Assembly: GCA_021737785.1 (NCBI GenBank)
Contig: JAIPDI010000010.1
Span: forward strand, 1-64,000
From: Deltaproteobacteria bacterium
Lineage (GTDB): Bacteria; Desulfobacterota; DSM-4660; Desulfatiglandales; Desulfatiglandaceae
Reading direction: 5' to 3'
DNA length: 64,000 nt
The notes below the pieces were generated by a model. That model worked only from the letters and a program-made list of their open reading frames with translations. It was not told the origin of the DNA and ran no database searches. The translations under genes and the position numbers were made by a program. Position 1 is the stretch's first letter; every line of letters starts with the position of its first letter. Below, piece after piece: positions 170 through 62,420 of the stretch.

Positions 170-246
170 TGGAGCCCACGACCGGGATCGAACCGGTGAA
201 CCTCATCCTTACCAAGGATGCGCTCTACCTACTGAGCTACGTGGGC
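170..246 (-). tRNA. tRNA-Thr (GGT)
   Basis: The minus strand folds into a full cloverleaf: acceptor GCCCACG/CGTGGGC, anticodon stem CATCC/GGATG around TTGGTAA (anticodon GGT), T arm ACCGG-TTCGATC-CCGGT and an encoded CCA end. It is the last tRNA before tuf, about 120 bases upstream of the EF-Tu RBS. Confidence 0.97.
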
Positions 247-369
247 ACTCCATAAATCGTGCATCACCGAACTAATGACATTACTAATGACATTGTCCTC
301 TGAATGTCAAAGGGCAAATATCGTACGTATTTCAGAAATTAAAGGATTTAAATTAATCCTCTATGTAAA

Positions 370-446
370 TGGAGCGGGAAACGGGATTCGAACCCGCGAC
401 CCTCAGCTTGGAAGGCTGACGCTCTAGCCAACTGAGCTATTCCCGC
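370..446 (-). tRNA. tRNA-Gly (TCC)
   Basis: The minus strand gives acceptor GCGGGAA/TTCCCGC, anticodon stem TCAGC/GCTGA around CTTCCAA (anticodon TCC), a normal T arm with GGTTCGAATCC, and an encoded CCA. It is third in the four-tRNA cluster. A spacer of about 200 bases without visible features separates it from tRNA-Tyr. Confidence 0.97.
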
Positions 447-652
447 CCTGTATCAACCCAACGCTGCTCTCAACCGATAAACGGAAACCCTCTCCTTGAA
501 TTATCTCCAAAGAGCTGCAGCAAAATCCCACCGATATCCCCTTTTGCCCGATGTACCAAAAATGATCCGCTCTTTTTTACATCCCTTGTTCATTCTGCGG
601 GCAAATACAAACCACATTCAAGTGAAAAATATAAAAAAGTTAAGCTGGAAGC

Positions 653-737
<85 letters not shown>

Positions 738-764
738 AGTTCGAGGTCTTGATTGATCGTGTCT

Positions 765-840
765 TGGAGCCAGCGAAGGGAATCGAACCCCCGACCCACT
801 GATTACAAATCAGTTGCTCTGCCATCTGAGCTACGCTGGC
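765..840 (-). tRNA. tRNA-Thr (TGT)
   Basis: This is the first gene of the minus-strand tRNA-tuf cluster. Acceptor GCCAGCG/CGCTGGC, anticodon stem ACTGA/TCAGT around TTTGTAA (anticodon TGT), T arm GGGTTCGATTCCC and an encoded CCA. With tRNA-Thr(GGT) it frames Tyr and Gly exactly as thrU-tyrU-glyT-thrT does in E. coli. Confidence 0.97.
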
Positions 841-5100: not shown

Positions 5101-5666
5101 TTTCTTCCTCCTCGCTAAAAAGCCTCTTGTTTTCATGCATTGTTACCAGAAGAATAAGCAATGATGGTGCCAACGGCCCCTTTTTTTCTCCAGGCACTCA
5201 TTTAACTGTTTGGTTTTAAAGTAAATAAAAGAAAATCATTAGAGGAAGCGACCCCTTTTTTGCTTGACCTTAATATGTCAATATTCTCGGCACCGATTTC
5301 TTGAGACAATCAACTTCCTAGGTAAGCATTAGATAAATAGGGATTTTTCTGTAGTGCCGAAAAGTGCGGCATGCTGCCTACTAATTCGACGCCTTTTATT
5401 ATGTCCGGGGGGTGAAACCTAAACAGTGCCTGAATCACGCCTTGGCGTGATTCAGGCACTATTGAAGATTGAAGAATTGAATATTGAAAATTGATGGAAT
5501 AAATTTAAGCTTAACAAACCGGATTCTCACATTTGACTGTTTCTTGATTCCCGGGTTTCCGTTCAGACACTAAATAAAGCCCTGAGACGCTCGAATACCG
5601 GTGGGAAAAGATGGATATTACCCCACCCCCCAAAAAAAATGGGTTCCGAACTATCGAAATCAGCAG
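5101..5666. other. Intergenic region containing a dispersed repeat
   Basis: About 565 bases between the archaemetzincin stop and the GcvH-like start, both on the minus strand. The central part (5425-5571) is the dispersed repeat described separately. The remainder is AT-rich with no supported gene. Confidence 0.6.
5425..5571 (+). repeat. Dispersed MITE-like repeat, copy 1
   Basis: A 147-base element that recurs in inverted orientation at 45347-45489. It begins with a perfect hairpin AGTGCCTGAATCACGCC-TT-GGCGTGATTCAGGCACT (5425-5460), continues with an ATTGAAGATTGAA-rich stretch and the shared blocks AATTGATGGAA, TTTCTTGATT and GGGTTTCCGTTC, and ends with TTCAGACACT. The first and last ten bases are inverted repeats with one mismatch (AGTGCCTGAA against AGTGTCTGAA). 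No open frame is present, so any movement would need a transposase in trans. No clear target-site duplication is visible. Confidence 0.75.
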
Positions 5667-10671: not shown

Positions 10672-13600
10672 ATGACAGCAGAAAATGCCCAGAAGGTCCG
10701 GGGTTCGGTGATGGTGGTCGGCGGCGGCATCGCCGGCATGCAGGCATCCCTGGACTTGGCAGATTCCGGCTTTTTTGTCCATCTGGTGGAAAAGACCCCT
10801 GCCATCGGCGGGGTCATGTCTCAACTGGACAAGACCTTCCCCACCAATGATTGCGCCATGTGAATCATCTCGCCGAAACTGGTCGAGGTCGGCCGGCACA
10901 TCAATATTGAGCTTCACACATGTTCTCAGATCCAAGCGATCGACGGTGAAAAGGGTGATTTCACGGTAACACTGCACAAAACCCCGCGGTTTATCGATGC
11001 CGATGCATGCACTGCCTGTGGAGATTGTGCAGCGGCCTGTCCCGTTGTCAGGCCCAGCGAATACGACATGGCACTGGCGGACCGCCGGGCCACATACAAG
11101 CCATACGCCCAGGCCATTCCCGGGTCCTTTGCCATAGAAAAGCTGGATAAAGCCCCATGCAGGATGGCCTGCCCGGCCAACCTGCATGTGCAGGGTTATG
11201 TCCAAATGGTCAAGGAGGGCAAGTACAGGGAGGCGGTTGAAATCATCATGCGGGACCTGCCGCTTCCCGGAATACTGGGCCGTGTCTGCCCCCATCCCTG
11301 TGAAAAGAGCTGTCGGCGGTTGGAGGTGGATGAGTCCATCTCCATCAGGGAACTCAAGCGGGTGGCTGCTGACCACACCGACCTCAGCGACATCCCGGTA
11401 CCGGAGATGGAACCGAAGGATGACAAGGTGGCCATAGTGGGTTCGGGGCCCGCGGGCCTTACGGCGGCGTACTTCTTAGCCCTTCAAGGCTACAAGGTCA
11501 GTATCTACGAGGCCATGCCCGAGGCCGGCGGCATGATGCGTTACGGGATCCCCGAGCACCGGCTGCCCCGTTCTGTCATAGATAGAGAAATCGCCAATCT
11601 CAGACGCTACGGAATTGAGATCCACACCCAAACCGCCATCGGCAAAGATATTACGATTGAAGAACTGAAAGACCATGGCGCCAAGGCCGTTTTCCTCGGG
11701 GCGGGGGCCTGGAAGGGGCTCAAGCTTCGCGTTCAGGGAGAAGAGGCCCAAGGGGTCTATGATGTCACCTCTTTTCTGAGAAATGTCCATCTGGGAGATC
11801 TGAAAAAAATCGAAGGAAAAGCGGTCATTATCGGCGGGGGCCATTCTGCCCTGGATGGCGCCCGGGTAGCGCTTCGACTGGGTGCGGACGAGGTTCACAT
11901 TATTTATCGACGGTCGCTTCCGGAGATGCTGGCGGAACCGGAGGAGGTGGAGGAGGCACAGAATGAGGGCATCAAGATCCATTTCCTGGTTGCCCCCTTA
12001 AAGATTTCCAATGAAAACGGCAAGGTCACAGGGATTGAATGCATTCGCACCCGTCTCACGGATCCCGATACCACCGGTCGGCGGAAGCCTGTCCCGGTCG
12101 AAGGTTCCGAGTTTTTTATTGAGGCGGAACACATCATCCCTGCCATCGGACAGGAGCCCGACCTCGACTTTTTGGGCAAAAATCTGGATGTGGACATCTC
12201 CAAATGGAATCTCCTGACGGTCAACCCCGAAACCCTGCAGACGAGCGTACCCTGGATATTTGCCGGCGGAGATGCGGTGACCGGACCTGCCACGGTAATT
12301 GAAGCCGTGGACGCAGGCAAGCGTGCCGCCCGATATATGGCCAAATTCCTGCAGGGAGAAACGCTTCCCACGGAATGGCAGGAAGAACCCCCCATCGGAA
12401 CCAACTGGGTGGAAATCCGGGATGATGAACCGACCCTCCATCGCATGAAGGCCCCCACCCTCCCGGTGGAGAAACGGCTTTCCGGTTTTGAGGAGGTCAA
12501 TCTCCTGGTGGATGAGGAGACGGCCAGGGCCGAAGCAGCCCGCTGCCTCAACTGCGGGGGATGTTGTGAATGTTACGAATGCGTCAAGGCCTGCAAGGCC
12601 CAGGCGGTCACCTTTGAGACCCATCAACAGAAGGAGGAGACCGTTTCAATCGATGTAGGATCAGTAATACTGGCCCCGGGCTTTTCCCCGTTTGATCCCA
12701 GCCGGTTTGACACCTACCAGTATGCGGCCTTTCCGAATGTGGTCACCAGCATGGAGTTTGAGCGGATACTGAGCGCCACCGGTCCCTTCCAAGGACACCT
12801 GTCCAGGCCTTCGGACCACAAAGAACCGTCCAAAATTGCCTTTTTCCAATGCGTCGGATCCAGAGACATCAACCAATGCGACCACGCCTATTGCTCTTCT
12901 GTCTGCTGTATGTATGCCATCAAGGAGGCCGTGATCGCCAAGGAACATGCTGCGGGAGACCTGGACACGGCCATCTTTTTCATGGATATGCGCACCCACG
13001 GAAAGGACTTTGACCGGTACTACAACCGCGCCAAGGATGAGGCCGGGGTCCGGTTCCTCCGTTCCAGGATCCACACCATCAACGAGGATCCTGAAACCCA
13101 TGACCTGATCATCCAGTATGCCGATGAGGGGGGCGCGATACAGACCGAGACATTTGATCTGATCGTGCTGTCGGTGGGGCTGGAAACCCCCGGATCTCTC
13201 GTGGACATGGCAGAACGCCTGGATATCCAATTGGACGCAGATCACTTTGTCAAGACCGGAACCTTCCAACCGGTCGCCACCTCCCGCGAAGGGATCTATG
13301 TGTGCGGCGCGTTTCAGGAACCCAAGGACATCCCCTATTCGGTCATGGAGTCAAGCGCCGCAGCCAATGAAACCAAAGGGATCCTATCCACTGCCCGGGG
13401 GACGATGGTCAAGGAAAAGACCTATCCCGGGGAACGGGATGTGTCGACACAAGCGCCCCGCATCGGCGTCTTTGTGTGCAACTGCGGCACCAACATCGGC
13501 GGCATCGTGGATGTGCCCAAGGTGGCTGAATACGCCCGCACCCTGCCGGGCGTCGCCTATGTGGAGGAGAACCTCTTCACGTGCTCCCAGGATACCCAGG

Positions 13601-15126
13601 ACAAAATCAGAGACGTCATCGAGAGAGAGGGATTGAACCGGGTCGTGGTCGCCGCCTGCACCCCAAGGACCCATGAACCCCTGTTCCAGGAAACCCTCAG
13701 AGACGCAGGGTTGAACAAATATCTCTTTGAAATGGCCAATATCCGGAACCAGTGTTCGTGGGTCCATTCCAAGGAGAAGGAGAAGGCCACGGAAAAGTCG
13801 ATGGATCTGGTGCGCATGGCCGTTGCCAGGGCCCAGTTGATCCAGCCTCTCCCCCAGCCGACCATTTCTGTGGACAACAAGGCCCTGGTCATCGGGGGCG
13901 GGATTACCGGCATGACCGCGGCCCTGGGTCTGGCCGACCAGGGGTATCACACCTACCTGATCGAAGAGTCGAAGGAATTGGGTGGAAATGCCCTGAAACT
14001 CATTGACACCTGGCAGGGAGAAGATATTGCCGAGAACGTCACGCACCTGGTCAAGAAAGTCATGGATCATGCCTTGATTGACGTTTACACCGGGTCTTCC
14101 ATCAAGGCATCTGAAGGATTCGTGGGAAACTTCGAGACCCTTATTTCACAAAACGGTTCCGACCTGTCGCTGAAGCATGGGGCCGTTGTCGTGGCCGTGG
14201 GCGCCGAGGAATTGAGGCCCACAGAATATCTCTATGGACAGGATGATCGGGTCCTGACCCACCTGGAGCTGGATGCGGCCATAAAGTCGGCATCCCCAAA
14301 GATCACGGGGGCCAGGGCGGCGGTCTTCATCCAGTGTGTGGGATCGAGGGAACCGGACAGGCCCTATTGCTCGAAGGTATGCTGCACCCACTCCGTGAAA
14401 TCCGCCCTCCAATTGAAAAAAATGAACCCGGAAATTGACGTCTATATCCTTTACCGGGATATCCGCACCTATGGCCAGAGGGAAGCCCTTTACAGGGAGG
14501 CCAGAAGACAGGGCGTCATCTTTATCCGGTATGGTCTCGACCGGAAACCAGCCGTTCTAAAGGGGACGGATGCAATAGCCGTCACGGTCAAAGACCCTAT
14601 CCTGAACCGGGATATCCTTATCAACGCCGATCTGGTCATATTGGCCTCGGCCATTGTTCCCCGTGACAACGCCACCCTTGCCCAGATGTTCAAGCTGTCC
14701 CTCAATCAGGACGGTTTCTTCATGGAGGCCCACGCCAAGCTGCGGCCTGTTGAATTCGCCACAGAGGGCGTTTTCCTGGCCGGGATGGCCCACTATCCAA
14801 AACCGATCGAGGAGAGCATTGCCCAGGCCAAGGCAGCTGCCTCGAGGGCCTCTGTGGTGCTCTCCAAAGAACATATTACTGTTGAAGGGGTGGTCTCCCA
14901 CATCAACGAGGTCCTTTGCCGGGGCTGCGGCAAGTGCGTGGATGCCTGTCCCTTCAGTGCCGTCTCCCTGGTGGAGCGAGAAGGGGGCAAGACCGTGGCA
15001 TTCGTGCAGGCGGCCCTCTGCAAGGGGTGCGGTTCCTGTGCCGTGGCTTGTCCCACAGGAGCGGCGTCCATATTCCACTATGATGATCAGGAAGTGCTGC
15101 ACATGGTGGAAGCGGCCCTAAATTGA
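10672..15126 (+). CDS. hdrA: Giant HdrA with inserted GltD/NfnB-like domain, selenoprotein (Sec64)
   Basis: A 1484-residue flavoprotein read through an in-frame TGA at 10861-10863. The context [18 protein letters not shown] matches HdrA, where this residue is Cys, and a SECIS-like hairpin follows. Domains: HdrA N-terminus and first FAD motif (GGGIAGMQ) with ferredoxin-type [12 protein letters not shown] at 1-130; GltD/NfnB-like part at about 159-565 ([10 protein letters not shown] Fe-S motif, FAD site GSGPAGL, NAD(P)H site [12 protein letters not shown]); HdrA continuation with [17 protein letters not shown] near 624 and [10 protein letters not shown] near 725; back half from 926 with [11 protein letters not shown], a further FAD motif GGGITGMTA near 1072 and [17 protein letters not shown] near 1220; two ferredoxin motifs at about 1416 and 1450. 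It probably links NAD(P)H to flavin-based bifurcation. First gene of the operon; ATG with AGGAG upstream. Confidence 0.92.
10872..10893 (+). promoter_or_regulatory. SECIS-like hairpin for Sec64 of the giant HdrA
   Basis: Eight bases after the UGA, GCCGA (10872-10876) pairs with TCGGC (10889-10893), and an inner CT/AG pair closes a GGTCG apical loop. The loop guanines lie about 17 bases after the UGA, within the range known for bacterial SECIS elements read by SelB. Confidence 0.6.
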
Positions 15127-16879: not shown

Positions 16880-18421
16880 GTGACTAAAGATATACTGGTT
16901 ATCGGGGGGGGAATCGCAGGCATGCAGTCGTCGCTGGACCTGGCCGACATGGGCATCAAGGTCCACCTGGTGGAAAAGCTCCCCAGCATCGGCGGCAAGA
17001 TGGCCCAATTGGACAAGACCTTTCCCACCAACGACTGTGCCATCTGAATACTCTCGCCCAAGATGCTGGATGTCGGTCGACATCCCAACATTGAACTTCT
17101 GGCCTACAGCGAAGTCGAGAAGGTCGAAGGGGAGGCAGGGGATTTCAGGGTCACGGTCCGCAGAAAGGCCCGCTATGTCAAGGAAGACCGATGCACCGGC
17201 TGCGGGGCGTGTGCGGAGAAATGTCCCACGGTGGTGCCCGATGCCTTCAACGAGGGCTTGGGAAACCGAAGGGCCATCTACAGCCTTTTTGCCCAGGGCA
17301 TACCCTCAACCCACACCATTGATCCGGACCATTGCCGGCAGTTGAACGGCAAGAAATGCGGTATCTGTGCAAAAACATGTCAGGCAGAGGCCATTGACTT
17401 CGATCAAAAGGACAGAATCGTCGAGTTGGATGTGGGGGCCATCATTATCGCCGCCGGATATGATGTATTCGACCCATCGCAGATCCCGGAATACCGGTAC
17501 CGCGAAATCCCCAATGTGGTCACGGCCATCGAGTTTGAGAGACTCCTGAGTGCCAGCGGTCCCACGGGGGGTCACCTGGACCGTCCTTCAGACCGTGCGG
17601 TTGAGGCGGAAATCGAAGAATTGGAAAAAAGCGCTAATAAATCGCAGAAGGTCCTCTCCAAACTCGAAGAAAAATACGGGGAATCTTCTGCCGCGTTCTA
17701 TGAGAAGTACCAATCCGGGGCATACCCGGACGATGAGGACCGGAAGAAGTGGGCTGACAAATATGCCGCCCATCTGGCCGTTGTGGAACCCCTTGAGGCG
17801 CTTAAGAAAAAGGCTGAGGGGTTCGACGTTGCCAAGAGGCTTGCCTTTATCCAGTGCGTGGGATCGCGGGATTTCAGATTTTACCCCTTCTGCTCCGGCT
17901 ATTGCTGCATGCACTCCATAAAGGAGGCCATCATTGCCCATGAACACGGCCCCGAGACCACATCCACCATCTTCGGCATGGACATCCGTGCCGTGGGCAA
18001 GGGATTTGAGGAGTATAAGATACGCGGGGGCAATCACTCCAATATCACCTATGTGCGCGGCCGGGTGGCTGAGATCGCGGAGGGGCCAGACAACAACCCG
18101 GTGGTGATTTATGAGGACACCCGGGAGAGAAAGGTCAAGCGCCAGGAATTCGATATGGTGATTCTGGCCACTGCCTGCGCGCCTTCAAAGGGGATCGCCG
18201 CTCTTGCCGAAACCGTGGGCGTTGAGCTGGACAAGTACAGCTTCCTGAAGACCAGCCCCCTCTCTCCGGTGGACACCACCACCCCCGGCATCTTTGTGTG
18301 CGGCTGTGCAGAGTCGCCCATGGATGTGCCGGAATCGGTGGCCCAGGCGTCCAGCGCTGCGGAACGAGCCGCTGAAATCGCGTTTCAACCGGATTTAGAA
18401 AAGGAGAAAGCCGTTGCCTGA
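16880..18421 (+). CDS. hdrA: HdrA front half, selenoprotein (Sec56)
   Basis: A 513-residue HdrA N-terminal half read through TGA at 17045-17047. The context [21 protein letters not shown] is the same conserved site as in the giant HdrA, where most relatives have Cys. First FAD motif GGGIAGMQ; ferredoxin-type motif [12 protein letters not shown], then [26 protein letters not shown] cluster motif. Between [13 protein letters not shown] and [10 protein letters not shown] lies a charged insertion of roughly 70 residues rich in Lys and Glu that the giant HdrA lacks. The start is GTG at 16880 with GGAGGAAACAGATC upstream. Its stop overlaps the next gene, which supplies the HdrA back half, so the pair is a split HdrA. 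Confidence 0.92.
17068..17085 (+). promoter_or_regulatory. SECIS-like hairpin for Sec56 of HdrA
   Basis: GGATGTC (17068-17074) and GACATCC (17079-17085) form a perfect 7-bp stem closed by a GGTC tetraloop. The loop is 27 bases after the UGA. GGUC in the apical loop is the same element as in the E. coli fdhF SECIS. Confidence 0.78.
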
Positions 18422-20096
18422 AAAAAATGATGATATCCGGATCGGCGTATTTCTCTGCCATTGCGGATCCAATATCGCCGGATACCTGAATATGGAGGAA
18501 CTGGGGGATTATGCCGAGACGCTCCCCCACGTGACCTTTGTGCAGAGAAATCTCTATACCTGCTCGGAGGGCGGCATCAATGAGATTAAAAAAGGGATAA
18601 AAGAGCAGAATCTTAACCGGGTGGTGGTCGCCTCCTGCACCCCACGGACCCATGAACCCCTCTTCCGGAGCTCCTGCGGTGAGGCCGGACTCAACCCGTA
18701 TCTCTTTGAGATGGTCAACATTCGGGACCAGTGCTCCTGGGTTCATATGAAGGAGGAGGAGAACGGCACCAATAAGGCCAAGGATCTTATCAGGATGGGT
18801 GTGGCCAAGGCCGCCCTGCTGGAACCTCAGGAAGTGATTATATCCGAGGTCCAGGTCCGGGCACTCGTGATCGGCGGCGGCATTTCCGGTATGACCGCGG
18901 CCCTCGCCCTCGCCACCAGGGGGTATGAAGTGGTCCTGGTTGAGAAGGAAGAGGCCTTGGGGGGGATGCTGAACCGACTGAACCGGCTGGGGCCCACCAT
19001 GACGCCGGCAAGTGATTTTGCAGCAGAAAAGGTTCGGGCCGTGACCGATCATCCCAATATTACGGTGTTCACCCATGCCAAGGTTGCCGAGGTCCAGGGA
19101 TTCATCGGCAAGTATAAGGTGGACATTGAAACTGAATCGGGCGTCAAGAATATCGATATCGGCGTAATCATCGTTGCCACCGGGGCCCGCGCCTTTGTGC
19201 CGGAGGGTCTTTACCATTACGATGGAAAACGCGTGATAACCCAGTTCGAGATGGAAACGCTTCTCAAGGAGGGATTGAACCCTGATATCAAGAACGTCGT
19301 CATGATCCAGTGTGTGGGAAGCCGCAATGAAGAAAGGGCCTACTGCTCCAGAATCTGTTGTCAGACCGCTGTCAAGAACGCCATGCTTATCAGGGAACAG
19401 AACCCGGACGCAAAGGTTTCCATCCTTTACCGGGACATGCAGATGTATGGCGTGGAAAATGAAGAGATGTTCCGGGATTCCAAGGCCGGGGGGGTCCGGT
19501 ATATGTACTACGATCCTGAGAGACCCCCTCAGGTGGAACCTGACAAGGTCCGAACATATCACGCCCTCCTGGGGCGCGAGATAGAACTACCCGCCGATCT
19601 TGTCGTCCTTTCCACCCCTCTTGTCTCACAGGAAGACGCCGAGATCACCTCCCGGCTCCTCCGGGTCCCCATTGATAAAAACGGGTTTTTCCTGGAGGGA
19701 CATGTCAAACTGAAACCGCTCGATTTCGCCACGGACGGCATCTTTCTCTGCGGCAGCGCCCGGTTTCCGGCCAATATCCGAGAGGCCGTGGCACAGGGCC
19801 TGGGCGCCGCCTCCAGGGCATCCATCCCCCTGTCCAAGGGATCGGTGGTGGTGGAGCCGATTATATCGGTGCTGGCCGATGAGGATGCCTGCCGCGGGTG
19901 CGGGCTGTGCGTGGCCCTCTGCCCTTACGGGGCACTGGAGATTCAGCGTACGGAAACGGGGAGAAAGGTCCATGTGATAGACGTGGCCTGCAAGGGATGC
20001 GGCGTCTGCGCTGCCACATGTTACCAGCACGCCTTGTCCATAAACTCCTTCACGGACCGGCAGATCAGGTCCCAGCTGGAAGCGTACTTGGGTTGA
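18414..20096 (+). CDS. HdrA back half (FAD and ferredoxin domains)
   Basis: A 560-residue flavoprotein homologous to residues 926-1484 of the giant HdrA. It starts with IGVFLCHCGSNIAGYL and the [10 protein letters not shown] motif, then an FAD motif GGGISGMTAALALA near residue 150, CVGSRNEERAYCSRICC near 300, and two C-terminal ferredoxin sites CRGCGLCVALCP and CKGCGVCAATC near 490-540. The start is TTG at 18414, inside the last codons of the preceding gene (8-base overlap) with AGGAGAAAGCCG upstream, so the two halves are translationally coupled and probably form one HdrA unit. A hairpin begins in its stop codon (20093-20130). Confidence 0.9.
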   Translation: MPEKNDDIRIGVFLCHCGSNIAGYLNMEELGDYAETLPHVTFVQRNLYTCSEGGINEIKKGIKEQNLNRVVVASCTPRTHEPLFRSSCGEAGLNPYLFEMVNIRDQCSWVHMKEEENGTNKAKDLIRMGVAKAALLEPQEVIISEVQVRALVIGGGISGMTAALALATRGYEVVLVEKEEALGGMLNRLNRLGPTMTPASDFAAEKVRAVTDHPNITVFTHAKVAEVQGFIGKYKVDIETESGVKNIDIGVIIVATGARAFVPEGLYHYDGKRVITQFEMETLLKEGLNPDIKNVVMIQCVGSRNEERAYCSRICCQTAVKNAMLIREQNPDAKVSILYRDMQMYGVENEEMFRDSKAGGVRYMYYDPERPPQVEPDKVRTYHALLGREIELPADLVVLSTPLVSQEDAEITSRLLRVPIDKNGFFLEGHVKLKPLDFATDGIFLCGSARFPANIREAVAQGLGAASRASIPLSKGSVVVEPIISVLADEDACRGCGLCVALCPYGALEIQRTETGRKVHVIDVACKGCGVCAATCYQHALSINSFTDRQIRSQLEAYLG

Positions 20097-24454: not shown

Positions 24455-25290
24455 TTATCGATTTCCATACCCACCTTTTCCCCCCCGCCTTCAGGCAACA
24501 GAGGGATCAACTCGTTCATGAGGACCCTGCGTTTCAATCCATCTACAGCTTTCCCGATGCCAGGCTTGCAAGTGCAGAGGACCTCATCCGGAGTATGGAC
24601 GAAGAAGGGGTCCAGCGGTCGGTCGTCTTCGGGTTCCCCTGGGAAAAAGCCGGGCTTTATACCAGGCATAATGATTATATTATCGAATCGGTCCATCGAT
24701 ACCCCGATCGGTTAACCGGCTTCTGCACCTTTTCGCCCCGCGCCCCGGGGGGCGCCCGGGAGGCCGAACGCTGCCTGGAACAGGGACTTTCAGGCGTGGG
24801 GGAATTAGCGGTTTACGGCTCCGGGCTCACTTCAGAAGTGGTCAAGGGCATGAAAGACGTCATGGATCTCTGCTCTCGAACCAACGCACCGCTCCTCCTC
24901 CATGTAAATGAACCGGTGGGACACGCCTATCCGGGAAAGACCCCCAACACCCTCAAACAGATATACGACTTTGTCAGGGAATATCTCTCCAACCGGATCG
25001 TGCTGGCCCATTGGGGAGGGGGTCTTTTGTTCTACGGCCTCATGAAAAGAGAGGTGAAAGAGGCATTACACAATGTCTGGTTTGACACGGCGGCCTCGCC
25101 CTTTCTTTACACCCCTGAGATCTACCGGATTGCCGGGGAGATCGTCGGTTTCGAAAAGATCCTCTTCGGAAGCGATTATCCCCTCCTCAGTCCGGGGCGT
25201 TATTTCAAAGAAATGGTCTCAGCAGGCCTGTCTTCCGAACAAATGGACCAGGTCAAAGAGGTAAATGCCGCACGATTGCTGAAATTCTGA
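24451..25290 (+). CDS. Amidohydrolase-family (TIM-barrel) hydrolase or decarboxylase
   Basis: A 279-residue Amidohydro_2-type protein. Metal-binding motifs: DFHTHLFPP at residues 4-12, LLLHVNEPVGH near 150, LAHWGGG near 190 and GSDYPLL near 250. This family includes hydrolases and non-oxidative decarboxylases acting on cyclic or aromatic acids; the substrate cannot be read from sequence. It overlaps the thioredoxin lipoprotein by four bases. The last 72 bases and the following roughly 95 bases are duplicated at 28305-28470, on the other side of the sensor kinase gene. Confidence 0.85.
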   Translation: MIIDFHTHLFPPAFRQQRDQLVHEDPAFQSIYSFPDARLASAEDLIRSMDEEGVQRSVVFGFPWEKAGLYTRHNDYIIESVHRYPDRLTGFCTFSPRAPGGAREAERCLEQGLSGVGELAVYGSGLTSEVVKGMKDVMDLCSRTNAPLLLHVNEPVGHAYPGKTPNTLKQIYDFVREYLSNRIVLAHWGGGLLFYGLMKREVKEALHNVWFDTAASPFLYTPEIYRIAGEIVGFEKILFGSDYPLLSPGRYFKEMVSAGLSSEQMDQVKEVNAARLLKF

Positions 25291-25384
25291 CCTCCGGGCG
25301 ATTCCTTTCCTCTATTCTTCTTTTGTCCACCCCGCCCGCTGCCTCTGGATTCAACTCGTAAATCATCAAAAGGCCCTCATTACG
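25219..25384 (+). repeat. Direct duplication flanking the sensor kinase, copy A
   Basis: The 3' end of the amidohydrolase gene (from AGCAGGCCTGTCTTCCGAAC) plus about 95 downstream bases, ending near AAAGGCCCTCATTACGAT, recurs in the same orientation at 28305-28470. The coding part differs at only a few positions; the trailing part is more diverged. Confidence 0.75.
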
Positions 25385-27990: not shown

Positions 27991-28643
27991 AATTCAACCT
28001 CGGAATATTTCATGGGTCGTTGATGAATAATACAGAGTATTGATTTATTTTTCCATATATTAATTATTTTTTTCAAGATGACCTGATTGCCAGAGGATAG
28101 AAAAGGGCTTCCGCCCACCGGCAGCGAGCATCGGTCCGGTAGATCCGGCTCAGGATATGATTAAGAAAGATTAAGAAACAATCTGTCGCTCGCCAATCGG
28201 GCAGCGGGAAACGCTCCCTCCACCGGCCAACTGACAGAAATGGGTGTGCGCCCCGAGTTTTATCTTGGGCTGAAATTGATCGGTTAAAATAGTCAAAATA
28301 TTCATCAGCAGGCCTGTCTTCCGAACAAATGGACCGGATCAAAGGGGTAAATGCCGCACGATTGCTGCACGGCTGACCCTGATGCAACCAGTCTTTTCTC
28401 TCTTTTTATGACCAACCCTCCCGTTTCTTTGGAATTCAATCCACAAATAATGAAAGGCCCTCATATCAATCTACCCTCCGCCATTGAAAATGGAGAGCAG
28501 TTCTGATATGCTGATTTCGGCAGTTTATCCCTTCCCGCCTTTGCTTGGGATTTACCATCAATAGAAATCAAGATGACCATGACGCTCAAAGAGGAAAGTC
28601 ATCCAAACGCCGGTTCTTCTCCTTTTAGACGGAAAGTGCTCTT
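27991..28643. other. Intergenic region with a truncated amidohydrolase 3' end
   Basis: About 650 bases upstream of the kinase and the DUF2914-like gene. Its second half contains copy B of the duplication (28305-28470). The rest (28070-28300) has no recognisable gene. The first 80 bases are AT-rich and probably hold the kinase promoter. Confidence 0.5.
28305..28470 (+). pseudogene. Duplicated 3' fragment of the amidohydrolase gene, copy B
   Basis: This stretch repeats the last codons of the amidohydrolase at 24451 (in frame it still reads SAGLSSEQMD, then NAARLL) and ends with a stop at 28374-28376. About 95 bases of downstream sequence, up to AAAGGCCCTCATATCAAT, are also shared with 25291-25384. 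No start or catalytic region is present, so it is a non-functional remnant. Confidence 0.75.
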
Positions 28644-44262: not shown

Positions 44263-45225
44263 TTACACCGCTTCGATGGTGGAAGGCGGCTTTGTGGCAA
44301 TATTGTAGGTGACGCTGACGATGCCGGGGACCTCGCGAATAATGTCGCTGGCAAGTTGTTCAAGGGTTTCGAACGAAAGACGTGTCGGTGTCGCGGTCCG
44401 CGCGTCCACGCTGTCCCAGCAGCGCACCTCGATCTGCCGGCCGAAATCCCGCTTGCCGTCGCGCACGCCGGTGACGCGATCTTCATGAAGAATTCCCATG
44501 TACTGGAAAGCGCCGGTGTTTTTCAGCAGCCGCTCCACAACGACCGTTGCCTTGCGCACCGTCTCAATGCGTTCCGGGGTGGCTTCTCCGATCACCCGCG
44601 CAGAAAGCGCCGGACCCGGAAAGGGGATGCGCTCAAACAGTTCGGAAGGGAGACCAAGCGCCTTGCCGATCTTCCGGACGCCGTCTTTGCGAAGCTGGAT
44701 CAGCGGCTCGATGATCTGATAGCCGAAGGCCTCCTGTGGATCAATGCCGAGCTGTTCGAAAACATTGTGTTGCCGTTTGATCCCTGCAACGGTTTCATCC
44801 ACGTCTGTCAGAATCGTCCCCTGAAGCAGATGTTTGGCGCCGCTTTCTTTGACAATGCGCCCGAAGACCGTACTGTAGAAGGTCTGCCGGATCGCTTCCC
44901 GCTTCTCTTCCGGGTCGGTGATCCCTTTGAGGGCTGAAAAAAACGCCTCCCTGGCATCCACCACGTCAACCATGACACCGAGGTCCCTGAAAAAACCGAC
45001 CACCTGTTCGGATTCCCCTTCGCGCATGAGACCGTTTTCGATGAATACGGTCTTCAGCTGATTTCCCAGGGCGCGATGCCCGAGCATGGTCACGGTGGAC
45101 GAATCGACGCCCCCGGAGAGGGCGTTTATGGCCATCCCTTCCCCCACAGCGGCCTTGATCTCCCCAACCTTTTCCTGGATGAAGTGTTCGGTGTTCAAGT
45201 CTTGCACAGCGATTTCCCTGATCAT
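44263..45225 (-). CDS. guaA: GMP synthase ATP-pyrophosphatase subunit without glutaminase domain
   Basis: A 320-residue protein that adenylates XMP and aminates it to GMP. PP-loop motif ALSGGVDSSTVT near residue 36; GTILTDVDETV; the C-terminal GMP synthase dimerisation domain (FPGPALSARVIGE, KRDFGRQIEVR) and KPPSTIEAV end are complete. The class I glutaminase domain normally present at the N-terminus of bacterial GuaA is missing. I start at 45225, where AGAGGAGGATGCCCC precedes the ATG; the longer frame to 45435 runs through a dispersed repeat and is non-coding. As in archaea, a separate amidotransferase or free ammonia must supply nitrogen; none is in the window. Confidence 0.93.
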   Translation of the reverse strand: MIREIAVQDLNTEHFIQEKVGEIKAAVGEGMAINALSGGVDSSTVTMLGHRALGNQLKTVFIENGLMREGESEQVVGFFRDLGVMVDVVDAREAFFSALKGITDPEEKREAIRQTFYSTVFGRIVKESGAKHLLQGTILTDVDETVAGIKRQHNVFEQLGIDPQEAFGYQIIEPLIQLRKDGVRKIGKALGLPSELFERIPFPGPALSARVIGEATPERIETVRKATVVVERLLKNTGAFQYMGILHEDRVTGVRDGKRDFGRQIEVRCWDSVDARTATPTRLSFETLEQLASDIIREVPGIVSVTYNIATKPPSTIEAV

Positions 45226-45346
45226 GGGGCATCCTCCTCTGAATGGTGAACTTTTATTTAGAATTCCTGGTATTGTCATACAACAATTCGTCTTGACCTC
45301 AAATGGCCACCCATCCCTGTAACAATAAAGGGCTAAACTGTTACTT

Positions 45347-45489
45347 AGTACCCGAACGGAAACCCGAAAAATCAAGAAACTGTGAAATATGAGAAGAGGT
45401 TCTGTTAATGAAAATTTTGTTCCATCAATTTTCAATTTTCAATTCTTGAATATTCAATTGTGCCTGAACGGGGTTTTCGTTCAGGCACT
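45347..45489 (-). repeat. Dispersed MITE-like repeat, copy 2
   Basis: A 143-base element, the reverse complement of which matches 5425-5571. Read on the minus strand it starts AGTGCCTGAACG-AAAACCCCG with TTCAGGCAC closing the first hairpin, continues with AATTGAAAATTGATGGAA, then TTTCTTGATT, GGGTTTCCGTTC, and ends CGGGTACT. Its ends AGTGCCTGAACG and AGTACCCGAACG are imperfect inverted repeats. It lies immediately upstream of guaA and next to a truncated gene. Confidence 0.75.
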
Positions 45490-45491
45490 TC

Positions 45492-45638
45492 TTATACGCA
45501 CGATGCCTCTGCATACGCCCTTCTCGCTTCAATGACAATCTTGATGCCGCCACTGGGCACCACCACCGAAATGATTAACCCTATGGCGAGGTCAGGAAGG
45601 CGTGCCGGCTGGGTGTTGATTACGATGGATACGAATAC
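45492..45638 (-). pseudogene. Remnant of a cation-efflux-like membrane protein C-terminus
   Basis: In one minus-strand frame the sequence reads VFVSIVINTQPARLPDLAIG, LIISVVVPSGGIKIVIEARR, resembling the last membrane helix of cation diffusion facilitators (SxxPDLxIGLII...GGxxILxEAR). A stop lies directly upstream in the same frame, and no start or metal-binding part is found. The remnant ends in the dispersed repeat. Confidence 0.4.
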
Positions 45639-59681: not shown

Positions 59682-62420
59682 ATGAGTCAAGAAAAACCAA
59701 AAGGTCCTGTCCTGGTTGTGGGCGGCGGGATCGCCGGGATTCAGGCGGCCCTTTCCCTCAGTGATGCAGGCCATGGCGTCCATCTCATAGAACACACGGG
59801 CACATTGGGCGGCATGATCCCCAAACTTCACCGGATCTATCCCCTCTGCGCATGTTGCAAGGTGGATCCGAGGATCGCCGCGTGTGAACAGGATCCCAAC
59901 ATCAACGTCATGGCCAATGCCCGCGTCTCCGGCATTTCCGGGGAAATGGGCAATTTTAGTGTCTCCCTTGAGACAGAGGAAGGGAAAAAGGAACTGAAAG
60001 CCGGCGCCGTGGTTCTTGCCGCAGGGATCGACACATTCGATCCCTCAGCGCACCAGACCTATTCCTACGGAGAACTTCCCAACGTGGTCACCAGCGTGCA
60101 ATATGAGCAGATACAGAAGCCGCTGGGACCCGGAAAAGGGATGCTTCAACGGCCCTCGGACGGCAAGGCCCCGAAAAAAATCGCCTGGCTCCAGTGTGTG
60201 GGCTCCAGAGACATCAACCAGTGCGATGCGCCCTACTGCTCTTCTGTCTGCTGCATGTACGCCCTCAAGGAGGCGGTCAATTCCAAAGATGTTGATGAGG
60301 AGATAGAAACCACTATCTTCTACATGGATATGAGGACTCCCGGTAAGGGCTACGAAGACTATCTGAACACCGCCGTTGACAAAGGCGTCCGTCTGATCCG
60401 CAGCCGGGTTCACACCGTAGACGAGGTTCCTGAAGGGGATGATCTCCTGATTGCCTACGCGGACGAGAGCGGTCACCTCCAAAAGGAGACCTTTGACATG
60501 GTGGTCCTCTCGGTAGGGATCCGTCCGGCCAAAGCCGCAGCCGAGGCCGCCGGACAGATGGGCGTCCGGCTGACCGACGACATGTTCGTGGACGTGGAAC
60601 CCTTTCAACCGGTCTCCACCAATGTCCCCGGCATCTTTGTCTGCGGCGGGATCAGCGGTCCTCATGACATCGCCCAGTCCATGATACAGGCCACTGCCAC
60701 TGTCTCTGAAATTGCATCCATCCTGACGCCTGAATCTTTTTCCCCTCCGAAGGCATACCCGGCCGTGTTGGACATGGAAGACAAGGAACCTCAGGCACTG
60801 CTGGCCTATCACCTCTGTCCGGGCATGGCCCCGGATCTGGGGAAGGAGTTGGAGGCCTGCGGCATGAAGACCCCGGGCATCAAGGCCGTCTCCCGGGTCG
60901 AGGGAGACATCATCAATGCCCTCGTTGACCAGCTGAAGAAGAGCGGGGCCAACCGGCTGGTCTTTGCCAGTTGCACACCCGTCATTCATAAGCCCCTGAT
61001 CGAGGAGGCCTTGAGGATGGCAGGCCTTAATCCCTATCTTTATGACCTGGTCGACCTGAGGGTGATGGATCCCGAGACCGCCACAGCCCAGATTCAGGAC
61101 CGGATCCGTATGGGAGCGGCCCGCGCGCTTCTCATCTCGCCACCGGCCTTGAGGGAAATCCCGGTGGTCAAGAGCGCCCTGGTGGTGGGGGCCGGGGTGA
61201 CCGGTATGGAAAGCGCGCTGGCTCTTGCCAGGGAGGGGTATCCCGTTACTCTGGTAGAAAAGGAAAAGGAGATCGGCGGCCATGGCCGGCACGTGCGCGC
61301 GACCTGGCAGGGATACGACGCCCAGGAGTATCTCAAGGGGCTCATCGCTGCGGTCCGGAATGACCCGAACATCACCCTGATGACCGAGACACGGGTCAGG
61401 GAAAACCGGGGGGTTGCCGGAAATTTTGTGACCACCCTTGAGCAGAAGGGAAAGGCCGTAGAGGTTTCCCACGGCGTTACCCTTCTCGCCTCGGGAGGCG
61501 ATCCCACCCGGCCCAAGGAATACCTCCTGGGAGAGCATCCCAATGTCTACATCTGGTCGGATCTGGAGCAAAAGCTGCTGGAAGACCCCGCCGCCATTGA
61601 AAAGGCCCAAAGTGCGGTCTTCATCCAGTGCGTAGGCTCCCGGGAGCCAGGCTGTCCCCACTGCAGCAACATCTGCTGTACATTTTCAGTGCGGGCCGCT
61701 GTCGACCTGAAGTCCAAAAACCCGGACATGAATATCTATATCCTGTATCGGGACATCCGCACGGTCGGAGAAAGGGAGACGCTTTACCGGGAGGCGCGGT
61801 CAAAAGGGGTCATCTTTATCCGGTACACGACAGACAACAAGCCGGTGGTGACGCCCGGGCCCGATGGGAACAGCCTCCGCGTGGTGGCATATGATCCGGT
61901 CCTCCAGAAATCGATCGCCCTGGAAGCGGATTTCGTCTCCCTCCAGACGGCCATTGTGGGAACCGGCACCCCGGAGCTGGCCGATATCTTCAGGGTCAAT
62001 TTAGACCCGAACGGCTTTTTTGCCGAATCTCCTGAAAAGCTGAAACCGCTTGACGCAACCGAAAAAGGGGTCTATGTGGCCGGTCTTGCGGGCTATCCCA
62101 AGGATACCATGGAGAGCATCGCCCAGGCCAAGGCTGCGTCTGCCAGGGCACTGGAAATCCTTACCCGGAATACCCTCCAGGTCGGGGGACTGGTGGCCGA
62201 GGTCCTGACGGAAAAATGCGCCGTGTGCTGCACCTGCGTCCGGACATGCCCGTTTCACGTACCGGTGATCGACCATGACCGGGGGGCCGCTTTCATCGAT
62301 CCCGGTCTTTGCCGGGGGTGCGGCATGTGCGTGGCCGAGTGTCCCGGAAAGGCCATCGTCATGGGCACCTGCAGCGACCCGATGCTGACCCGGGCCCCGT
62401 CGATCCTTTTGGCAAATTAG
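59682..62420 (+). CDS. hdrA: HdrA-like flavoprotein of the MetVF operon
   Basis: A 912-residue full-length HdrA. First FAD motif GGGIAGIQAALSL; the site that is Cys/Sec in the other operon reads YPLCACCKVDP (residues 53-63), with ordinary cysteines. [10 protein letters not shown] and [15 protein letters not shown] near 170; second FAD motif VGAGVTGMESALALA near 501; CVGSREPGCPHCSNICC near 650; two ferredoxin sites CAVCCTCVRTCP (846) and CRGCGMCVAECP (877). Unlike the giant HdrA it has no GltD insert. It precedes mvhD, metV and metF, so it probably supplies or accepts electrons for methylene-THF reductase by flavin-based bifurcation. ATG at 59682. Confidence 0.92.
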   Translation: MSQEKPKGPVLVVGGGIAGIQAALSLSDAGHGVHLIEHTGTLGGMIPKLHRIYPLCACCKVDPRIAACEQDPNINVMANARVSGISGEMGNFSVSLETEEGKKELKAGAVVLAAGIDTFDPSAHQTYSYGELPNVVTSVQYEQIQKPLGPGKGMLQRPSDGKAPKKIAWLQCVGSRDINQCDAPYCSSVCCMYALKEAVNSKDVDEEIETTIFYMDMRTPGKGYEDYLNTAVDKGVRLIRSRVHTVDEVPEGDDLLIAYADESGHLQKETFDMVVLSVGIRPAKAAAEAAGQMGVRLTDDMFVDVEPFQPVSTNVPGIFVCGGISGPHDIAQSMIQATATVSEIASILTPESFSPPKAYPAVLDMEDKEPQALLAYHLCPGMAPDLGKELEACGMKTPGIKAVSRVEGDIINALVDQLKKSGANRLVFASCTPVIHKPLIEEALRMAGLNPYLYDLVDLRVMDPETATAQIQDRIRMGAARALLISPPALREIPVVKSALVVGAGVTGMESALALAREGYPVTLVEKEKEIGGHGRHVRATWQGYDAQEYLKGLIAAVRNDPNITLMTETRVRENRGVAGNFVTTLEQKGKAVEVSHGVTLLASGGDPTRPKEYLLGEHPNVYIWSDLEQKLLEDPAAIEKAQSAVFIQCVGSREPGCPHCSNICCTFSVRAAVDLKSKNPDMNIYILYRDIRTVGERETLYREARSKGVIFIRYTTDNKPVVTPGPDGNSLRVVAYDPVLQKSIALEADFVSLQTAIVGTGTPELADIFRVNLDPNGFFAESPEKLKPLDATEKGVYVAGLAGYPKDTMESIAQAKAASARALEILTRNTLQVGGLVAEVLTEKCAVCCTCVRTCPFHVPVIDHDRGAAFIDPGLCRGCGMCVAECPGKAIVMGTCSDPMLTRAPSILLAN

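Follow-up and report, generated by a model that had tools for sequence, protein, structure and literature searches.

Among the systems described so far, the best general parallel to the repeat family presented here is MITEAba12, a short non-coding element derived from an insertion sequence (IS) and spread across a bacterial family; ISAba12 is proposed as its parent, and recent movement into the hns locus is documented (PMC6382973). The IS1202 family, formerly filed under ISNCY, is a second point of reference; close to either end its members offer the transposase one more site to bind (PMC10132070). Dispersed palindromes of another kind are represented by the REPs, which carry GTAG/CGTC tags, the GTAG REPs being linked to Y1 transposases (PMC3733652). 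In a limited search of the open literature, no MITE turned up for which a parent of ISNCY type had been named.

The window, by which we mean the whole 64,000-nucleotide stretch of contig JAIPDI010000010.1 that was analysed, comes from an uncultured bacterium related to sulfate reducers and contains just two copies of the family (Table 1). For a neighbouring protein of the window, the best relatives belong to uncultured Desulfobacterota, among them Candidatus Desulfatibia. An earlier note, made from the letters alone, had read them as dispersed MITE-like repeats in opposite orientation, and that reading was right: 49 near-full-length copies exist in the genome, 6-bp duplications border them, and an IS partner has the same ends. 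Very probably, both stretches belong to one non-autonomous MITE family mobilised by the ISNCY (NF033593) DDE transposase of a 1.9-kb IS with these ends. The family shares with MITEAba12 its small size, lack of coding content and derivation from a nameable parent IS; it differs in having another parent and in being known from sequence, where for MITEAba12 movement itself is documented (PMC6382973).

Table 1. Positions of the two MITE copies in the window, with their parts and flanking duplications
Feature	Position	Strand	Basis or remark
MITE copy 1, core subfamily A	5426..5570	+	family-model match, E 5.5e-30
Left target-site duplication TAAACA, copy 1	5420..5425	+	one base off right TAAATA
5' palindromic end (R-loop-R'), perfect hairpin with long insert TCACGCCTTGGCGTGA, copy 1	5426..5459	+	fold
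Non-coding core, rich in A/T, with degenerate repeats of ATTGAA type, copy 1	5460..5550	+	copy alignment
3' terminal inverted repeat CCGGGTTTCCGTTCAGACAC, copy 1	5551..5570	+	complement matches the ISNCY IS end of L166 at 19/20 bases
Right target-site duplication TAAATA, copy 1	5571..5576	+	
MITE copy 2, core subfamily B, short hairpin	45348..45488	-	family-model match, E 1.4e-34
Target-site duplication at 5' end, TAAGAA (minus strand), copy 2	45489..45494	-	
29-nt palindromic 5' end GTGCCTGAACGAAAACCCCGTTCAGGCAC, copy 2	45460..45488	-	same hairpin recurs across the order
Target-site duplication at 3' end, TAAGTA (minus strand), copy 2	45342..45347	-	

Copy boundaries were taken from terminal GTG to terminal CAC, so that copy 1 begins with GTGCCTGAA at 5426 and closes with CAGACAC at 5570, near the limits first proposed. 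Between the two copies, 99 nt are complementary at 82% and a further 26 nt match at 85% at the 3' end; the hairpin, the core and the GGGTTTCCGTTC end are common to both. No coding capacity was seen in either. The terminal inverted repeats are imperfect, as had been claimed, with 15/20 matching bases in copy 2 and 11/20 in copy 1, where the 5' arm has been rebuilt into a perfect palindrome by loss of CGAAAA relative to other long-form copies. Elsewhere in the window, two 74-nt copies beginning TCAGCAGGCCTGTCTTCCGAACAAATGGACC (25219-25292 and 28305-28378) lie 3 kb apart in direct orientation and are 91% identical; a cluster of four tRNA genes was placed at 173-840 (minus strand) by Rfam; and three diverged long repeats (11068-15126, 17063-20096 and 59682-62420), with blocks about 64-79% identical and cysteine-rich motifs, look like paralogous genes for iron-sulfur/flavin oxidoreductases, perhaps HdrA-like.

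A sequence model of the family, built from 15 copies, recovered the 49 near-full-length copies from the 5.33-Mb genome (96 contigs), together with about two dozen further matches that are partial or weak, among them several halves of copies split by another repeat. The search of the whole genome that the earlier note had called for thus yielded further copies, whole and fragmentary. Most are 136-166 nt long, so that the family is short, non-coding and multi-copy, as a MITE should be. A second MITE-like repeat (TTCGTAAAAAGTCGTCACCCCGTTGAAAAACGGGG...GACTTTTTACGA) sits within the core of several copies (L030, L061, L062, L071, L078); since it lies inside cores of the present family, its own movement came later.

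Each copy is laid out as a 5' palindrome, an A/T-rich core and a 3' end, GGGTTTYCGTTCRGRYAC, and the ends of the copies in this genome take the form GTGYCTGAACG...CGTTCRGRYAC. The palindrome has a short form, GTGCCTGAACG-AAAACCC-CGTTCAGGCAC, and a longer one that includes the insert given for copy 1 in Table 1. The core repeats are degenerate, of ATTGAA or AATTGCGAATT types, and the cores fall into three subfamilies about 70-83% alike, with a mean identity of 93% and a maximum of 98% within subfamily B. Short and long hairpins number 11 and 8 on B cores, 5 and 6 on C cores, and 2 and 1 on A cores; with both forms on all three cores, the palindrome must have been exchanged or repeatedly changed. 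In some copies (L011, L024, L025) the 5' end is separated from the target duplication by an additional GCA, which makes a consistent end variant. All MITE cores contain short, degenerate repeats rich in A/T (ATTGAAA, GATTTTG, TTCGAAATC and GGTTCAA types), and such repeats also stand alone between genes in several genera (L049, L053, L054, L055).

Insertion is recorded in the flanks. Direct repeats of 6 bp, with the consensus TANNTA, abut both ends, and the paired flanks agree with at most one mismatch in 25 of 38 copies (66%; 12 perfect, 13 with one mismatch). When the left flank of one copy was set against the right flank of another, 23% of cases reached that level, and the observed degree of matching was reached in none of 20,000 permutations. 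An empty site for copy 2 was sought in relatives and none was recovered, because intergenic synteny is broken there or only coding parts align.

A transposase with the same ends, for which the earlier note had also suggested looking, is found at ISNCY-family loci in relatives and as a remnant here. Four other genomes of the order, and a further two of the phylum, have ISNCY-family transposases (NF033593) next to these ends; the same terminus lies beside the transposase gene in G013, G069, G075 and G072. One transposase (L162:337-1704) scores 475.5 bits against the curated NF033593 cut-off of 325, which places it within ISNCY. In G069 both ends of a 1,931-bp IS are present, and G287, which belongs to a different family within the phylum, has two 1,865-bp IS copies, 99.9% identical, with both terminal inverted repeats and perfect duplications TAAATA and TAATTA. 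TANNTA flanks all 11 of the IS termini read. A partial ISNCY homologue in G003 (L167) showed no recognisable terminus in the stretch examined. Fetching single-ended occurrences of the MITE terminus brought out the remnant in this genome (contig C95, L070), in which TAAATA followed by GTGTCTGAACGAAAACCCC runs on into the final 79 codons of a transposase gene; its closest intact relative is the transposase of G013 (ISNCY family NF033593, E 1.4e-142). Only this locus, among the single-ended matches, carried a transposase end. The others, considered as autonomous elements (L064, L065, L073, L074, L075 and more), look like truncated or degenerate MITEs. In this assembly the ISNCY family model finds only the C-terminal fragment and no intact ISNCY transposase, and the partner has therefore decayed, been lost or is missing from the assembly; current mobility of the family is thus at most putative.

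The ends, the TANNTA target and the 6-bp duplication are thus common to the IS and the MITE, which differs in having no gene, an unrelated core and a 5' end in which the terminus is present a second time, inverted. Compared over 20 bases, the MITE 5' end agrees with the IS ends on the C-terminal side of the transposase at 16-19 positions and the 3' end at 14-19, against 11-15 for the N-terminal IS ends; on this comparison the source of both MITE ends would be the IS end on the C-terminal side. Further in than the terminal 20 or so bases, MITE and IS showed no similarity. The 5' end of the MITE is a palindrome made of two inverted IS-end copies, and this R-R' hairpin is absent from the IS ends examined. 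A subterminal inverted end copy within the IS itself was considered; two ends are suggestive (TGACCG...CGGTCA in L164; TGAACG...GGTTCA in the remnant), but G287 and G013 showed none, and the idea was dropped. Comparison with IS1202 brings out further differences: its Acinetobacter members make 5-bp duplications and the family has 5'-TGT ends, whereas the present family has a 6-bp TANNTA duplication and 5'-GTG (PMC10132070). Within ISNCY the partner may possibly belong to the ISDol1 group. Duplications in that group are 6-7 bp long, a length that would suit the partner's 6 bp. The digIS paper confirms the existence of an ISDol1 subgroup.

In the mechanism that we propose, the DDE transposase (ISNCY, NF033593) encoded by the 1.9-kb IS would recognise GTGYCTGAACGAAAACCC at each MITE end and, acting in trans, would insert the short element into TANNTA with duplication of the six bases. 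Both ends of the MITE would go back to that one IS end, and the fold-back R-R' end may have been kept or exchanged between elements. With ends and landing-site rule common to the MITEs and the full-size ISNCY element, the family is ordinary in kind.

Other readings of the same repeats can be envisioned, and each has some purchase on the data. A low-complexity ATTGAA-repeat region shared by accident, with no mobile element behind it, would draw on the ATT-rich repeats that stand alone in other genomes. The earlier note had named similarity limited to the low-complexity core as grounds for abandoning its reading, and the similarity extends further: both ends and the middle are shared, and copy 1, searched against the whole genome, matched at dozens of places, with E 1.5e-56 for the best other copy and E = 3e-25 for copy 2, so that the likeness of the two copies is not chance. 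These values and the 49 near-full-length copies refute the accidental explanation, to which we give almost no credence. That the repeats instead act as structured RNA or in regulation (as terminator, sRNA or promoter), conserved for what they do to downstream genes and not by transposition, would fit the strong hairpin (z -3.6 for the whole-element fold of copy 1), the intergenic position of both window copies and the retention of the hairpin in many genomes. However, Rfam gave no match to the element above gathering score (in the window, just the four tRNAs), an excess of promoters or terminators is not clear, target duplications are present, the flanks are unrelated, and recognition by a transposase explains why the ends are conserved; we regard such a function as the cause of conservation as very unlikely.

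The palindrome also invites comparison with REP/REPIN sequences, which it resembles in being dispersed and in occurring alone or within a larger element (PMC3733652). A hairpin serving as recognition structure for a Y1 (HUH) transposase (RAYT), and spread as single-stranded DNA, would account for a high-copy intergenic palindrome and for solo hairpins, and the genome does have four Y1_Tnp genes. Yet none of the four is flanked by the family terminus, and the sole Y1-adjacent match had three mismatches and lacked the flanking pattern. No GTAG/CGTC tag stands at the foot of the hairpin, where the position is taken by the NNTA of the duplication. Target duplications of 6 bp and terminal inverted repeats at both ends are unexpected from a single-strand pathway, and these ends are also those of a DDE-type IS; in its duplications and its DDE-type partner the family departs from REP/REPIN with RAYT (PMC3733652). 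Spread by a Y1 enzyme is accordingly most improbable, and mobilisation by the ISNCY transposase is the reading that we carry forward.

Conservation of a one-sided palindrome in similar elements across the order is the family's one unusual feature. Of the order's 85 genomes, 28 contain the 29-nt palindrome (a reversed control pattern gave no match), attached in other genera to different cores such as GATTTTGGATTTTGGATTGCGGATT. It also occurs as solo 29-bp hairpins with perfect duplications in G016 and G072 (both TAATTA), G076 (TAAATA) and G036 (TATCTA). Different cores, exchange between subfamilies and these solo hairpins could together mean that selection and mobility attach to the fold-back end as such, two inverted transposase ends around a 7-nt loop, which we consider unlikely. 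The same data would be explained if a full MITE lost the sequence between its two direct R' copies, an event whose product is exactly the solo form, so that the hairpin need not move independently.

Each copy sits between tandem genes of the minus strand and, as had been observed, upstream of a gene start: copy 1 by 289 bp from the start (5136) of an ORF with a GCV_H domain, copy 2 by 122 bp from the probable ATG (45225) of a PP-loop / GMP-synthase-C-like gene. The listed ORF 44263-45435 begins inside copy 2, at a mechanically assigned TTG (45435); GAGGAGG precedes the ATG at 45225, and the ORF is likely over-extended, with its start at that ATG. An influence of the MITEs on expression of their neighbours is possible. 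The suggestion to that effect in the earlier note found no support here, with no promoter-like site near copy 1 and a weak 9/12 match near copy 2. A promoter or terminator carried by the element was rejected, scans showing no clear excess over shuffles.

For an abundant repeat family in uncultured Desulfobacterota, a transposase partner, the ends, a target rule and the extent of spread can now be named, and repeats as well as gene starts placed too far upstream in such genomes find an explanation in the family. Its conserved palindromic end raises the question of what a DDE transposase does when one end offers it two binding sites in inverted orientation. If the fold-back end does prove to be a mobile module in its own right, the 29-bp hairpin would be among the smallest units movable by a DDE transposase.
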